Source: Alphaproteobacteria bacterium MarineAlpha10_Bin3 (GTDB lineage: Bacteria; Pseudomonadota; Alphaproteobacteria; UBA8366; GCA-2717185). From it: DNA of 10,714 nt. This document shows positions 2,000 through 10,536 of the stretch, one piece after another. The notes below the pieces were generated by a model. The model was not told the DNA's origin and searched no databases. It saw only the letters and a program-made list of their open reading frames with translations. The stretch is taken from NCBI GenBank assembly GCA_002937525.1, contig PTKA01000014.1, positions 1 through 10,714 of the forward strand, given 5' to 3'. The position numbers and the translations under genes were made by a program. Positions within the stretch are counted from its first letter, which is position 1. Each line of letters opens with the position of its first letter.

Positions 2000-2037
2000 T
2001 GCAAGTATGCAAATAGTGTAATGCAAATTATATGCAG
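2000..2037. repeat. Short direct repeats in AT-rich spacer, candidate integrase arm sites
   Basis: ATGCAAAT occurs at 2007-2014 and again at 2021-2028, 14 bp apart. Related copies of TGCAA/TGCAG lie at 2000-2004 and 2033-2037, and TAGTGT recurs at 1994-1999 and 2014-2019. The repeats sit in the very AT-rich interval 1957-2078, between the complete tRNA and the truncated one. Short repeats next to a core site are typical of arm-type sites for tyrosine recombinases or of excisionase sites; that role is inferred. The rest of 1957-2078 has no gene. TATACA at 1991-1996 (minus) could be a -10 box for the tRNA, but no good -35 was found. Confidence 0.35.
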
Positions 2038-2078
2038 TTAACCATTGATTTCATGTTAATATTTTTAATATAAAACAC

Positions 2079-2117
2079 TTAGGAATCTGTCACTCTATCC
2101 GACTGAGCTACGGGGTC
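2079..2117 (-). pseudogene. 5' half of a second tRNA-Arg(CCT), cut at the anticodon loop
   Basis: On the minus strand from 2117 the sequence gives acceptor GACCCCG, TA, D-stem GCTC/GAGT, anticodon-stem strand ACAGA and loop TTCCTAA. It then breaks off into unrelated AT-rich DNA (GTGTTTTATATT). It matches the complete tRNA at 35 of 39 positions and loses similarity exactly after TTCCTAA. A break at the anticodon loop is a known integration sublocation for tRNA-targeting tyrosine recombinases. Its missing 3' half seems to lie nearby on the other strand (2228-2277). Confidence 0.8.
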
Positions 2118-2238
2118 ACAATTACCTGCTTATCAGAGGCGGTGAAAATCCGCCAATCAATTCAGCCCAGAGCGCCACCTCTCGACACAGCGCCTTGATC
2201 CGGTTACGCTTCCTGTCCGGCGGTCACCAGATTCCTAA
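2079..2238. other. 160-bp segment bounded by inverted copies of the recombination core
   Basis: TTAGGAATCTG (2079-2089) and CAGATTCCTAA (2228-2238) are perfect 11-bp inverted copies of the tRNA-Arg anticodon-loop core. Inverting the segment on paper joins the two tRNA halves and restores a perfect ACAGA/TCTGT anticodon stem. Inside (2118-2227) there is no gene. It holds a small dyad GGCGG-TGAAAAT-CCGCC (2138-2154) and, on the minus strand, what would have been the promoter region of the 5' half. Whether it still inverts cannot be told from one sequence. Confidence 0.55.
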
Positions 2239-2277
2239 TCTGTAGGACACGGGTTTGAATCCCGCCGGGCGGGCCCA
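2228..2277 (+). pseudogene. Decayed 3' half of tRNA-Arg(CCT)
   Basis: On the plus strand there is an anticodon arm CAGATTCCTAATCTG, variable loop AGGAC, and a T-arm ACGGG-TTTGAAT-CCCGC followed by CGGGCGGGCCCA. Compared with the complete tRNA it has lost the invariant T-loop C56 (now T), has an A-C mismatch at the outer T-stem pair, and its acceptor strand would match the 5' half at only four of seven positions. No 5' tRNA half precedes it on this strand. It looks like a displaced 3' half of the kind left at an attachment site, now decaying. Confidence 0.7.
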
Positions 2278-2326
2278 TTCATGCCAAGCGGCGATGAGGG
2301 GCTTTTGGTGCGCCGGGCGAGGAGGG

Positions 2327-3295
2327 ATGACGGAGACGGCGAACGGGTCGGCAGGCGTGGTTCGGAAGGGGCGCTATCTTGGCGCGGAAATCACCGGGGT
2401 CGATTTGTCGCAGCCCTTGGACGACGCAGATTATGCCACGATCCACCGGGCATTTCTCGAACATGAAGTGCTGATCTTGCGCGATCAAGACATCGAGCCG
2501 GCGCAATTCATGGCCTTTGGCCGGCGCTTCGGCGAACTCACCGTGCACCCTTTTTCGCCCAATATGGCCGGCGCGCCGGAATTGATCATACTCGACAATC
2601 ACGCCGACAATCCGCCAAAACTGACCGATATCTGGCATAGCGACGAAACCTTCCGCGAGACGCCGCCGAAGGCGACGATACTGCGCAGCACCATCGCTCC
2701 GGCGCTCGGCGGCGACACCATGTTTGTCAGCATGACGGCAGCCTATGACGGGCTGGGCGACGCCACCCAGCAGTTGATTTCCGGCCTCGAAGGCATCTTC
2801 GATTTCAAACCGTTCCGTACCTTGTTCGGCAACGAAGCGGAAGATCACCGGCGGCTGCGCGAACTGGAAGAACAATATCCGTTGCGCCGCCACCCGATCG
2901 TGCGGGTGCATCCCGAAAGCGGCCGCAAGGGTATCTTCGTCAACCGGCAGTTCACCATCGGCATCGACGGCATGAAGGATACAGAAAGCGGCCCGCTCCT
3001 GGCCATGCTGTTCGATCAGGCCAACCGGCCGGAATACCAGTACCGCCTGTCCTGGCGGCCCCATACAATGGTTGTGTGGGATAACCGCGCGGTCCAGCAT
3101 TACGCCATTCACGACTACTTTCCGCAGCGCCGGCGCATGGAGCGGGTCACCATCAAGGGCGATGTCCCGTTCGGCATCAATGGCGGCTATGACGGCCCGG
3201 TCATCGGCCGGGCCGCGATCAACCTTGGCGAACAGGACGCTGTGCCGGACACCGGCAAAGAACCGGTCCGGCAATCGCGCCGCACCTGGCCCTAA
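2327..3295 (+). CDS. TauD/TfdA-family Fe(II)/2-oxoglutarate dioxygenase
   Basis: This is predicted to be a cytoplasmic oxygenase that uses Fe(II), O2 and 2-oxoglutarate to hydroxylate an organic substrate, as in taurine or aryloxyalkanoate breakdown. From the ATG at 2327 it has 322 residues. The N-terminal GAEITGVDLSQPL is typical of the family. The iron ligands are His104 and Asp106 in IWHSDETF and His258 in WDNRAVQHYAIHDY. Arg273 in MERVTIKGD would bind 2-oxoglutarate. This spacing is close to that of E. coli TauD (99, 101, 255, 270). AGGAGG at 2320-2325 lies only 1 nt from the ATG, which is tight; the ATG at 2294 and the GTG at 2357 or so remain possible. The substrate cannot be assigned, as no transporter or sulfonate gene is adjacent. 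It is the first host-like gene after the tRNA remnants. Confidence 0.9.
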   Translation: MTETANGSAGVVRKGRYLGAEITGVDLSQPLDDADYATIHRAFLEHEVLILRDQDIEPAQFMAFGRRFGELTVHPFSPNMAGAPELIILDNHADNPPKLTDIWHSDETFRETPPKATILRSTIAPALGGDTMFVSMTAAYDGLGDATQQLISGLEGIFDFKPFRTLFGNEAEDHRRLRELEEQYPLRRHPIVRVHPESGRKGIFVNRQFTIGIDGMKDTESGPLLAMLFDQANRPEYQYRLSWRPHTMVVWDNRAVQHYAIHDYFPQRRRMERVTIKGDVPFGINGGYDGPVIGRAAINLGEQDAVPDTGKEPVRQSRRTWP

Positions 3296-3431
3296 AGTTA
3301 CCGGGACCCGGACGGCCCCAACCCGGTCGCGGATAAACCCTGGATTTCGCGACCCAAATCGACTAAACGGTGCAGCAATCGCCGGGCCATGGCATGACTG
3401 GCGCCCCTACATCCAAATTAAAGGACCGATT

Positions 3432-5246
3432 GTGGACATCCGCAACATTGCCATCATCGCCCATGTCGATCACGGCAAGACCACTTTGGTCGATGCCCTG
3501 CTGCGCCAAAGCGGCCAATTCCGCGACAACCAGCAGGTTGTCGAGCGGATCATGGACTCCAACGAACTGGAGCGCGAGCGCGGCATCACGATCCTATCCA
3601 AATGCGGCTCGGTGGTCTGGAACGATATCCGCATCAACATCGTCGATACGCCGGGCCACGCCGATTTCGGCGGCGAAGTGGAACGCATTCTCGGTATGGT
3701 CGATGGCGTGCTGCTGCTGATCGACGCGTCGGAAGGGCCGATGCCGCAGACCAAGTTCGTTACCGCCAAGGCGCTGGCGCTGGGCCTGCGCCCGATCGTC
3801 GTCATCAACAAAATCGACAAGCCCGACGCCCGCGCCGATGCGGTGCATGATGAGGTCTTCGATCTGTTCGTGTCGCTCGACGCCAATGACGAACAGCTTG
3901 ATTTCCCGGTGCTGTTCGCTTCGGCCAAGAACGGCTGGGCCAGCCTGGACTCCGAAACCAAGGGCGCCGACATGACCGTGCTGTTCGACGCCGTGATCCA
4001 TCATGTGCCGCCGCCCACCGTCACCGACGGCCCGTTCCGGATGCTGGCGACGACCCTGGAAAACGACAAGTTTCTTGGCCGGGTGCTGACCGGACGGATC
4101 CTGTCCGGCAGCGTCACGGCGAATACGACGATGCAGGCGCTGGACCGCGGCGGCAAGCAGATCGAGCGCACCCGCATCACCAAGGTCCTGGCCTTTCGCG
4201 GCGTCGCGCGCGAAGGCGTCGAGGCCGCCCATGCCGGCGACATCGTGGCGCTGGCCGGATTCCGCAACGCCAGCGTGGCCGATACGATCTGCGACCTTGA
4301 AGTGACCGTGGGGCTGGCCGCCCAGCCGGTCGATCCGCCGACCCTGGCAATGGTCTTCTCGGTCAATGATTCGCCGTTGGCGGGACGGTCGGGCAAGAAG
4401 GTCACCTCGCGTCTGATCCGCGACCGGCTGATGTCCGAAGCAGAGGGCAATGTCGCCATCCGGGTGACCGAAACCGCGGGCGGCGACGCCTACGAGGTTG
4501 CCGGGCGTGGCGAATTGCAGCTTGGCGTGCTGATCGAAACCATGCGCCGCGAAGGCTTCGAGCTGACCATTAGCCGGCCCCGCGTCCTGACCCGCGAGGA
4601 CCCGGAAACCGGCAAGACCCTGGAGCCTTATGAAGACGTGGTGATCGATGTCGATGAGAAATTCGCCGGCACGGTGGTCGAATCAATCGCCGAGCGGCGC
4701 GGCCGGATGGTCGATATGCGCCCATCGGGCGGCGGCAAGCAGCGCCTGCACATCATCGCGCCCTCGCGCGGGCTGATCGGCTATCACGGCGACTTCATGA
4801 CCGAAACCCGGGGCACCGGCGTGATGAACCGGGTGTTTCGCGAATATGGACCCCATGCGGGACCGGTCGCCGGACGGCGCAACGGGGTGCTGATTTCAAC
4901 CGGCGCCGGCAACAGCGTCGCCTACGGGCTGATGGGGCTGGAAGCGCGCGCGACCCTGTTCATCACCTCCGGCGTCGCGGTCTATGCCGGCATGGTCATC
5001 GGCGAAAACAGCCGCGGTAACGACCTTGAAGTCAATCCGATGAAATCCAAACAGCTCACCAATATCCGCGCCTCGGGCACCGACGACGCCGTCCACCTGA
5101 CCCCGCCGCGCCGCCTCTCGCTGGAACAGGCGATCGCCTATATCCAGGACGACGAGCTGGTCGAGGTCACGCCCGACACGATCCGCCTGCGCAAACGCTA
5201 CCTCGACACCCACGAACGCAAGAAGGCGGCGCGCGCCAGCGCGTGA
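3432..5246 (+). CDS. typA: Ribosome-associated translational GTPase TypA/BipA
   Basis: TypA (BipA) is a translation-factor GTPase of the EF-G/LepA group that binds 70S ribosomes and supports ribosome assembly and growth under cold or other stress. The start is GTG at 3432, with AAGGA at 3421-3425, giving 604 residues against about 605-610 usual. The open frame extends upstream over the end of the dioxygenase gene but shows no similarity there. G-domain motifs are AHVDHGKT (10-17, P-loop), RGIT (50-53), DTPGH (72-76) and NKID (126-129), followed by a SAK G5 motif. Domain II, domain III ([12 protein letters not shown]) and domain V (PSRGLIGY) follow. The TypA-specific C-terminal domain has the typical [16 protein letters not shown] and [10 protein letters not shown]. 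It stands alone: 136 bp separate it from the gene before and 129 bp from the one after. Confidence 0.97.
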
Positions 5247-6103: not shown

Positions 6104-6763
6104 ATGGCATTCTTCACTCTGGACGGTCCCCGCATCGACCCTGCCTCTGGCAAGGCGGCTAGGCAGCTCGTCATCTTGCTGCACGGGCTGGGCGCCGACG
6201 GCAACGATCTGATTGGGCTGGCGCCGCATTGGGCGGAATTTTTGCCCGATGCGGCCTTTGCCTCGCCCACTGCGCCGTTCCCCTGCGATATGTCACCGAT
6301 GGGATATCAATGGTTCAGCGTGCAGGACCGCTCGTCATCGGCGATGCTGGCCGGCGTGCGGGCGGCGGCGCCGGTTCTCGACGCCTTCATCGACCAGGAA
6401 CTCGAACGGGTCGGGCTGCGCCCCGACAAGCTGGCTATTGTCGGTTTCAGCCAGGGTACGATGATGAGCCTGTATGTCATCCCGCGCCGCGACGAGGCCG
6501 TGGCCGGCGTCGTCGGCTATTCCGGCCGGCTGGTCGGTCCCGAACAGCTGGAAAGCGAAACCGTCTCGCGGCCGCCATTCCTGCTGATCCACGGCGAAGC
6601 CGACGAACTGGTCGCCTTTGACTCGATGGCCCTGGCCGAACAGGGGCTGGAAGCGGCCGGGATACCCGTCAATACCGTCGCCCGGCCGGGCCTTGGCCAC
6701 GGCATCGACCATGAAGGGCTGACCCATGGCGGCGCGTTCCTCAAGGCGGCCTTCGCCGTGTAA
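6104..6763 (+). CDS. Alpha/beta-hydrolase, carboxylesterase/phospholipase family
   Basis: This is a predicted serine hydrolase of the bacterial carboxylesterase / acyl-protein-thioesterase-like group (Abhydrolase_2), acting on short acyl esters in the cytoplasm. It has 219 residues, the usual family length. LLHGLGADGND (25-35) carries the oxyanion-hole segment. GFSQGTMMSL (114-123) is the nucleophile elbow with Ser116. Asp167 in HGEADELV and His199 in GLGHGID complete the triad. There is no signal peptide. GGGA within AAAGGGAAAAC at 6088-6098 is a plausible ribosome-binding site for the ATG at 6104. Its stop is 6 bp before the next gene, so the two are likely cotranscribed. The natural substrate is unknown. 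Confidence 0.92.
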   Translation: MAFFTLDGPRIDPASGKAARQLVILLHGLGADGNDLIGLAPHWAEFLPDAAFASPTAPFPCDMSPMGYQWFSVQDRSSSAMLAGVRAAAPVLDAFIDQELERVGLRPDKLAIVGFSQGTMMSLYVIPRRDEAVAGVVGYSGRLVGPEQLESETVSRPPFLLIHGEADELVAFDSMALAEQGLEAAGIPVNTVARPGLGHGIDHEGLTHGGAFLKAAFAV

Positions 6764-9040: not shown

Positions 9041-9618
9041 GCCAGAAACCGCACGGCCACAAAGCCCAGCACCAGCAAAAGCACGAAGGCCAGCGTGAGC
9101 GGTCCGAGCCAGCGTTCGATGAAGGCCCGGATAGGCGGCCCGAACCGCCACAGCAAGGCCGCGACCAGCAGAAACCGGGCGCCCCGGCTGATTACCGAAA
9201 CGACCGTGAAAGTCGCCAGATCAAGATTGACCGAGCCGCTGGCAATGGTGATGACCTTGTAGGGAATCGGGCTGAAACCGCCGGCGAAAACGATCCAGCC
9301 GCCCCATTCCCGGTACCAGTCCTGAAACCGTTCGAACTTGTCGAAATAGCCGTAGAAATCGAGGATCATCCGGCCCAGCGTCTCGAAAACGAACAGCCCG
9401 ATGGCGTATCCGGCAAGACCGCCCAGCGCCGAGGCGGCGGTGGCGACGGCAACGATCCGCCAGGCCCGCGTCGGCGCTGCCAGCACCATGGGAATGATCA
9501 GAACGTCGGGCGGGATCGGGAAGAAGGAACTTTCGGCGAAGGCGAGTACGGCGAGCCAGAGCATCGCGTTCGGCTTCGCCGCCAGATCCATCGTCCAATC
9601 GTAGAGCCGGCGCAGCAT
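9037..9618 (-). CDS. YqaA/DedA-family inner-membrane protein (VTT domain)
   Basis: This is a multi-pass inner-membrane protein of the DedA/SNARE-associated group, related to proteins involved in lipid carrier or phospholipid flipping and membrane homeostasis; the exact substrate is unknown. It has 193 residues from the ATG at 9618. The signature FAESSFFPIPPDVLIIP (27-43) and the re-entrant-loop motif GGFSPIPYKVITIASG (113-128) are clear. Hydrophobic segments lie at about 19-47, 54-78, 106-127, 137-157 and 173-192. Arg145 and Arg148 follow in SVISRGARF. The start overlaps the stop of the upstream gene as TGATG, so reinitiation is likely. The shorter YqaA form fits better than full-length DedA (about 220 residues). 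Confidence 0.9.
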   Translation of the reverse strand: MLRRLYDWTMDLAAKPNAMLWLAVLAFAESSFFPIPPDVLIIPMVLAAPTRAWRIVAVATAASALGGLAGYAIGLFVFETLGRMILDFYGYFDKFERFQDWYREWGGWIVFAGGFSPIPYKVITIASGSVNLDLATFTVVSVISRGARFLLVAALLWRFGPPIRAFIERWLGPLTLAFVLLLVLGFVAVRFLA

Positions 9619-10502
9619 CACCCGTCCATCCACCCCTCAAGCGCGGCTTGCAGACGCGCAACAACCCCGGCCCAGTCGCCTGGCGTGGCCTGACGGAACA
9701 GCGTCATGGTGGGATACCACGGGCTATCGGTCCGATCGAGCATCCAGCGCCAGTCCGGTGAATATTTCAGCATCAGCCATGTCGGCCGGCCCAGGACGGC
9801 GGCCAGATGCGCGGTCGCGGTATCGACCGTGATCACCAGATCCAGCGCGCCCATCGCCGCCGCCGTGCTGGCGAAGCCGTCCAGCCTGTCCGACCAGTCT
9901 TCGAGCCGGTGTCCGGTATCGGCGAAAGCACCGGCCTGCGGGCCGTATTGCAGACTGACCCAGGCGATATCGCGCCGCGCCAGCAGGGGCGCCAATATTG
10001 CCGCCGGGCAGGACCGCCGCGGGTCATCGGGATGGGCCGGGCTGCCGGCCCAGCACAATCCGACCCGGACGCGGCCATCGCCCGCCGGTGGCGCGATGGC
10101 ATCGCGCGGCGCCCGGAGGTAGGGAATTTCGGCCGGCACATTGTCCAGCCGCGTGCCCAGCAGATACGGCAAGCTCATCAGCGGCGCGTGACAATCGACC
10201 GGCGGTGCGTTTTCGCCAAAAGGAACAATCGCCGGCGCACCATCCAGAGTCTCGAACAGCGGCGCCAATTTCGCGGCGCATTGAATGCTGACGCGGGCGC
10301 CGCCGCGCTGCAGTATCGGCGCGTAGCGGACAAACTGGATCGCATCGCCGAACCCTTGCTCGGCGAGCAGCAGAATATGCCCGCCGGCCAGATCGCCGCC
10401 CTGCCAGCGCGGCGACGGATGGCCGGGCGGGGCATGGCCAGTGGTCCGGATCCGCCATTCATATTCGGCGAAACCGGCACCGAAGTTGCAGGACAGCAGC
10501 AT
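9618..10502 (-). CDS. TPR/glycosyltransferase-like protein, lacking its TPR part
   Basis: The 294 residues match the C-terminal, GT9/heptosyltransferase-like region of large TPR-glycosyltransferase proteins common in alphaproteobacteria, where full proteins are about 500 or more residues. Motifs in order are AEYEWR (12-17), LAEQGFGDAIQFVRY (46-60), VDCHAPLMSLPYLLGT (102-117), VGLCWAGSPAHPDD (147-160), VDTATAHLAAVLGRP (226-240) and DWRWMLDRTDSPWYP (250-264). The sequence begins inside what is normally the last TPR helix (LLSCNFGAGFAEYEWR), and DNA upstream of about 10503 is unrelated and lower in GC, so the gene is 5'-truncated. The ATG at 10502 has no Shine-Dalgarno; a TTG at 10526 is alternative, with an in-frame TAA just before it. 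It may be a pseudogene or a still-translated domain leading the coupled minus-strand set. Confidence 0.75.
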   Translation of the reverse strand: MLLSCNFGAGFAEYEWRIRTTGHAPPGHPSPRWQGGDLAGGHILLLAEQGFGDAIQFVRYAPILQRGGARVSIQCAAKLAPLFETLDGAPAIVPFGENAPPVDCHAPLMSLPYLLGTRLDNVPAEIPYLRAPRDAIAPPAGDGRVRVGLCWAGSPAHPDDPRRSCPAAILAPLLARRDIAWVSLQYGPQAGAFADTGHRLEDWSDRLDGFASTAAAMGALDLVITVDTATAHLAAVLGRPTWLMLKYSPDWRWMLDRTDSPWYPTMTLFRQATPGDWAGVVARLQAALEGWMDG

Positions 10503-10536
10503 CGTCACTAGTCTGTAAACCAGCAATTACAGGGAG

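Follow-up and report, generated by a model that had tools for sequence, protein, structure and literature searches.

Probable nesting of two integrative elements at tRNA-Arg(CCT) genes in an alphaproteobacterial contig

The DNA analysed here very probably carries two nested integrative elements, A and B, each of which would have cut a tRNA-Arg(CCT) gene in its anticodon loop while carrying a spare complete tRNA of its own. This window, i.e. the whole stretch of 10,714 nucleotides, is the entire contig C46 of the draft metagenome assembly of Alphaproteobacteria bacterium MarineAlpha10_Bin3 (2.30 Mb, 502 contigs, 64% complete). In the proposed sequence of events, an integrase would pair a short attP core with the anticodon loop of tRNA-Arg(CCT). 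Element A would have entered the host gene via such a short core, rebuilding the gene at neither end and leaving the host 3' half behind. It would have carried a complete replacement tRNA, T0, inverted, pointing into A and located 111 bp from the core. Element B would later have entered the anticodon loop of T0, leaving the T0 5' half, and would have brought an AT-rich arm, a complete replacement tRNA, T1, and its integrase gene immediately behind T1. By analogy with known systems, the element's own tRNA would take over once a gene has been broken. Sequence comparison with related genomes shows one junction of A, the anatomy of A-type elements in the relatives and a second nested case.

Layout of the window and the two tRNA halves

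From the right, the window contains bipA and tauD (+), a tRNA 3' half (+), about 110 bp, a tRNA 5' half (-), an AT-rich stretch of 122 bp, T1, the integrase gene and a gene for a DUF6641 protein. The gene at 2330-3295 (+) encodes a TauD-family dioxygenase according to its protein family match and is taken as host DNA to the right of element A. The 3' half (2228-2277, +) is read as what remains of the host tRNA-Arg(CCT), displaced to the right end of A, since the native 3' halves in two relatives, G009 and G334, are displaced to the corresponding position. Its anticodon loop comprises a core, AGATTCCTAA (2229-2238, +), placed at the right junction of A by a core search of the assembly. The interval 2118-2228 (-), which matches arms in G009 and G334, would form the right-end arm of A together with the upstream region of T0. 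The 5' half (2079-2117, -) is assigned to T0, A's replacement tRNA-Arg(CCT) cut by B, from its likeness to T1 and its corresponding place in G009, G334 and a third relative, G164. At the junction of B with T0 the core AGATTCCTAA occurs again (2079-2088, -), its inverted copy reading TTAGGAATCT. The B arm (1957-2078, -; 122 bp, 28% GC) is followed by the complete tRNA-Arg(CCT) T1 (1880-1956, -), read as B's replacement tRNA, whose acceptor stem pairs 7/7 and whose CCA is encoded. The tyrosine recombinase gene of B (622-1872, -; 416 aa) has its start codon 7 bp after T1, and the DUF6641 gene (127-558, +) is probably part of B as well. GC contents are 28% in the B arm, 50% in the integrase gene and 64% in tauD-bipA. 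A 302-aa reading frame is also present on the - strand at 9618-10526, close to the right contig end.

When ARAGORN and Rfam were applied to the window, the complete gene alone was reported and neither half was. The assembly has 12 tRNAs above threshold, five of which were typed with ARAGORN; T1 is the only tRNA-Arg(CCT) among those five. Both tRNA-Arg(CCT) halves are nevertheless where the first-pass annotation had located them: the - half is identical to the 5' half of T1 at 35/39 positions, and the + half sits in a 51-nt inverted match (2229-2279 against 1877-1927, in T1's 3' half) with 82% complementarity. The same annotation had regarded the halves as likely derived from one gene, cut by a recombinase at about TTCCTAA and inverted between 11-bp cores over 160 bp. 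The cut in the anticodon loop at about this place is supported, as is the involvement of a tyrosine recombinase and a mobile element. The inverted repeat exists, with a length of 10 bp and a spacing of 140 bp. AGATTCCTAA is found 3 times in the 2.30-Mb assembly, every copy lying in the window, and the backward-pattern control 0 times.

An inversion by the recombinase of the 5' half of a single tRNA-Arg(CCT), with the 140 bp between the cores, would explain why these 10-bp cores are inverted. It would also explain why the anticodon-stem strands ACAGA and TCTGT pair 5/5, as had been claimed and as read from the window letters, which give CCAGA at 2227-2231. Furthermore, intact tRNAs of G014, G017 and G019 have ACAGA followed by TCTGTAGG. 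The TCTGT/ACAGA stem is present in 3/33 distinct tRNA-Arg(CCT) sequences compared, and with two nested elements the 5/5 match would be a mild coincidence. The acceptor stems, entered by hand for the pairing counts, argue against a common origin of the halves: GACCCCG of the - half and CGGGCGG of the + half pair at 4/7 positions (G-T counted), against 7/7 in all five split tRNA pairs of relatives. The better-matching partner that the first-pass annotation had considered for either half was found as a sequence type for the + half, whose CGGGCGG would pair 6/7 with a congener-type GCGCCCG; such a partner is absent from the assembly. Core and half searches of this 64%-complete draft recovered partner halves for neither window half, and the other end of A and the far end of B are absent from it too, one junction per element being visible in the window. 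The + half has probably decayed, as had been suspected from its sequence, with a T-loop TTTGAAT, an end read as CCCA and the acceptor strand CGGGCGG. The interval 2079-2141 (the T0 5' half and 24 bp upstream) matches a tRNA-Arg(CCT) locus in G019 with 89% identity over 63 bases. The matching G019 gene (L156:9354-9430, contig C6) is a complete tRNA-Arg(CCT), either a host or an element gene.

The host site and the ends of similar elements in relatives

The empty site was sought first via TauD relatives and then, since these had no tRNA-Arg nearby (0/15 loci scanned, 0/5 wider regions), via bipA. In the three congeners searched (G001-G003, 3/3) an intact tRNA-Arg(CCT) is located about 140 bp upstream of bipA, divergently, and in G005, of the same family, about 1.6 kb upstream. 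The acceptor stem of these congener and G005 genes reads GCGCCCG/CGGGCGC. The other window proteins were all absent from the vicinity of bipA in six regions examined. At 2255-5246 of the window bipA and tRNA-Arg(CCT) are neighbours as in the three congeners; their order and orientation differ, however, and tauD lies in between.

The host tRNA of G009, upstream of bipA, is likewise cut in the anticodon loop. Its contig C75 contains the 5' half and then an element with an integrase; its contig C453 contains the native 3' half, 152 bp, an inverted complete tRNA-Arg(CCT) and a type I restriction system. We infer that C75 and C453 represent opposite ends of a single element because the joined halves are identical to the intact G005 tRNA at 77/77 positions, both being upstream of bipA. 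In G334 the whole arrangement is on one contig: the 5' half (17931-17893), the integrase gene (16599-17741), an inverted complete tRNA (6683-6759) and the 3' half (5528-5481). In G042 the complete copy adjoins the 5' half and shares its orientation, with the integrase gene at the opposite end and the 3' half 9.3 kb off; this layout differs from that of G009 and G334, and the place of the replacement tRNA therefore varies. A complete tRNA-Arg(CCT) was found inside the elements of G009, G334 and G042 and inside the inner element of G164, the replacement tRNA of the outer G164 element being split. No tRNA is rebuilt at the junctions of the G009, G334, G164 and G042 elements, which carry halves alone; both junctions were seen on one contig in G334, in G042 and for both the outer and the inner element of G164, and on two contigs for G009. 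A gene-restoring insertion of element A was rejected.

Integrases of the G009 type were detected in 2/43 genomes of the order at an E-value of 1e-25 (one being G009 itself) and in 3/385 genomes of the class at 1e-35. Each of the five adjoins a tRNA half severed within the anticodon loop; the anticodon is CCT in four cases and TCT in one. Phage_integrase is matched by six integrases from relatives, that of G042 falling slightly under the cut-off. The TCT case is on contig C47 of G122 (L171:11254-11284 and L166), where a relative of the G009-type integrase lies beside the 3' half of a tRNA. This half is arginine by reading of its anticodon, and the integrase family may use another arginine tRNA too; no tRNA was reported by ARAGORN over the 39.6 kb examined in G122, the contig ending about 8 kb further on. 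Among the cargo proteins tested for defence families, 7/10 match; those of G009 are type I restriction subunits, G042 contributes an SNF2-type helicase and a methylase, and in G334 the matches are a methylase and one protein with a weak match. The G042 cargo (contig C61, L152:6054-11403), an SNF2-type helicase and a DUF1156/PglX-like methylase, is weakly like known defence systems. We also considered that altered anticodon stems might protect the replacement tRNAs. With pair stems entered by hand, and window A and the inner G164 element left out, 5/5 pairs differ at 2 or 3 of 5 positions, which is not significant; this idea was rejected, as identical anticodon stems occur in just 18% of random pairs among the 33 sequences.

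The window arm (2118-2228, -) and the G009 arm share 35/44 bases, ungapped and starting 5 bases after the common 11-bp core in both. The score of 43 compares with at most 26 in 2000 Markov resamples, and a second run gave 0/1000 resamples as good. Between the window and G334 arms a 25-column match with one gap was obtained (score 26, offsets 16/16, 0/1000 resamples as good), between those of G009 and G334 a match of score 31 (offsets 48/49, 0/1000) and between those of G334 and G164 a match at offsets 59/59 (1/1000). The window and G164 arms do not match significantly (910/1000 resamples as good), nor do those of G009 and G164 (76/1000). Control flanks of 20 intact tRNA-Arg loci scored at most 19 against the window arm. 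A DNA search for this arm in 385 class genomes returned, besides the window, one match, in G328, which was rejected as chance, lying inside a coding gene with no tRNA nearby. We also rejected a coding reading of 2118-2228: one - strand frame is open both there and in G009, yet the mismatches over the 44 aligned bases of the window and G009 are spread as 3, 2 and 4 across codon positions, hence no coding signal. Spaced TACCG/CACCG repeats occur about 60-80 bases from the core in G009 (L155:8109-8124), G334 and G164 (L170 and L169, at the same offset) and are perhaps integrase arm sites; none was seen by eye at the corresponding place of the window arm.

With the window arm homologous to these arms and in register with them, the + half is best read as a host remnant at the end of such an element, and the - half would occupy the place of the inverted replacement tRNA of the other elements. 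In G009 and G334 that inverted tRNA is intact and stands beside the native 3' half with no inversion having occurred, so that the orientation seen in the window appears to be how this type of element sits. An inversion between the cores is thus very unlikely. Even less credible would be decayed tRNA duplications or an assembly artefact, devoid of any mobile-element logic. The draft metagenome assembly and an unusual host gene order speak for this: the host half of the window is followed by tauD and bipA, whereas in 3/3 congeners and in G005 the tRNA has bipA on its 5' side. This order would need an extra rearrangement, which counts against two nested elements too. On the other hand, an artefact would not account for a junction arm homologous to element ends in other genomes, and the longest exact stretches common to the three window tRNA pieces are 11 to 13 bases, below the word sizes usual in assembly.

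Nesting in G164 and the integrase of element B

A second nested case was identified on contig C18 of G164. The outer host tRNA is split (84480-84442, -, and 29523-29476, -), and the inverted replacement tRNA of the outer element, at a distance of 1.9 kb from that 3' half, is likewise divided into a 5' half (31434-31472, +) and a 3' half at about 69672 (+). The integrase gene of the inner element lies about 300 bp behind the 5' half of this split replacement tRNA. Acceptor stems pair 7/7 in both pairs and the anticodon stems match. The inner element comprises a further complete tRNA-Arg(CCT) (43224-43300, -), 12 kb and 26 kb from its junctions, a less tidy placement than in the other cases. The window would show nesting like that of G164 at closer range, B lying inside the replacement tRNA of A.

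The window integrase matches phrog_1 integrase (E 3.9e-25), Pfam yielding only an N-terminal SAM-like domain, and has no similarity to the G009-type integrase, the type to which A's own integrase, absent from the assembly, would belong. In a sample of 385 class genomes the nearest relatives of the window integrase, apart from the genome of the window itself, come from three genomes (31-35% identity); by two methods the distant homologues are at 29-35% identity. Integrase relatives were absent from phage records; searches of viral contigs with the integrase, the DUF6641 protein and the window arm found nothing, and plasmids gave three weak integrase matches (26-27%) and one 30-bp match. The PHROG matched by the DUF6641 protein is of unknown function. 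Phage records with matches to the tRNA region numbered 660, the annotated ones among the matches listed being tRNA genes.

The three distant homologues of the B integrase adjoin complete tRNA-Met(CAT) genes, with no split tRNA upstream. These loci look like ordinary gene-restoring insertions, which counts against the reading of B given above, and B may have inserted likewise if T1 is its junction. The integrase at 622-1872 would then have restored T1 on entering it, and T1 and the AT-rich arm would belong to a further element, making three rather than two. We consider this unlikely, though less so than an inversion. The tRNA-Met genes are about 148, 148 and 224 bp from the integrase start (match start for two loci), whereas the 7 bp between T1 and the B integrase leave no space for arm sites, and the AT-rich stretch with repeats is on the other side of T1. 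This stretch holds the direct repeat ATGCAAAT (2007-2014 and 2021-2028) and a promoter-like match directed towards T1 (2054..2027, -), one of two such matches in the region against 0.5 expected. With the 7-bp gap on one side and the AT-rich arm between T1 and the cut T0 on the other, T1 is read as B's replacement tRNA and would belong to B. A third element would leave the nesting principle unchanged. As its start codon is 7 bp behind T1, the B integrase may be translated from the tRNA's own transcript.

Relation to known systems and fate of the tRNA gene

That an element's isoacceptor can replace a broken tRNA has been published before, including for Sinorhizobium (PMC11476347). tRNA-dependent lysogeny was shown and named for actinobacterial phages, in which integration breaks a tRNA and the phage tRNA takes over (Guerrero-Bustamante and Hatfull 2024, PMC10865867). 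As outlined there, those phages share with the present elements a tyrosine integrase, an attB in a tRNA gene, a tRNA rebuilt at neither junction, a short common core (8-17 bp in the phages) and a complete tRNA of the same isotype on the element. The tRNA requirement was tested in the phages, whereas the present elements come from draft genomes and their tRNAs are putative replacements. It also differs in concerning alphaproteobacterial integrative elements at tRNA-Arg(CCT), some with restriction or other defence-like genes, and in that the replacement tRNA would serve as the next target.

Phage-related sequences of Sinorhizobium meliloti, also among the Alphaproteobacteria, have an insertion-inactivated tRNA replaced by the element's isoacceptor (PMC11476347, PMC12429752). 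The 25 element tRNAs counted in the accessible portions of these reports are fMet, Met, Thr, Leu, Val and Ser and, unlike here, none is Arg; nor do those portions describe nesting in a replacement tRNA. phiLM21-like prophages are said there not to show the tRNA-replacement mechanism (PMC12429752). The tRNA-targeting islands of Islander resemble the present elements in having a tyrosine integrase and the anticodon loop as one of the crossover subsites, but, according to the sections available, their attP tRNA fragment restores the target (PMC4383910), whereas regeneration of the target at one junction was not found in the G009, G334, G164 and G042 elements. Close to the nesting proposed here, and not identical to it, is a tandem prophage that has its own tRNA-Thr besides an impaired one, as summarised in PMC9934374. 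In the open-access literature searched we found no report of one element having entered the replacement tRNA of another.

T0 would have been expressed and T1 would be now, supplying AGG decoding, and the decay of the host half would tie the cell to the elements. A more far-reaching reading, with slightly less than even chances, is a ratchet: one element after another captures the tRNA-Arg(CCU) that decodes AGG, the host copy degenerates, and the next element attaches at the tRNA that its predecessor brought. An essential tRNA would then be owned by mobile elements two or more layers deep, neither layer being freely lost, with an integrase of B that may come from the tRNA transcript. Those who search for islands should note that an intact copy close to a split tRNA does not by itself imply a gene-restoring insertion. 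The findings would add alphaproteobacterial integrative elements with defence-like cargo to the known cases of tRNA-dependent integration and, from two genomes (that of the window and G164), indicate that the next element can attach in the replacement tRNA itself. This would provide a route for the repeated replacement of an essential tRNA gene by mobile DNA, through which the elements become hard to lose.
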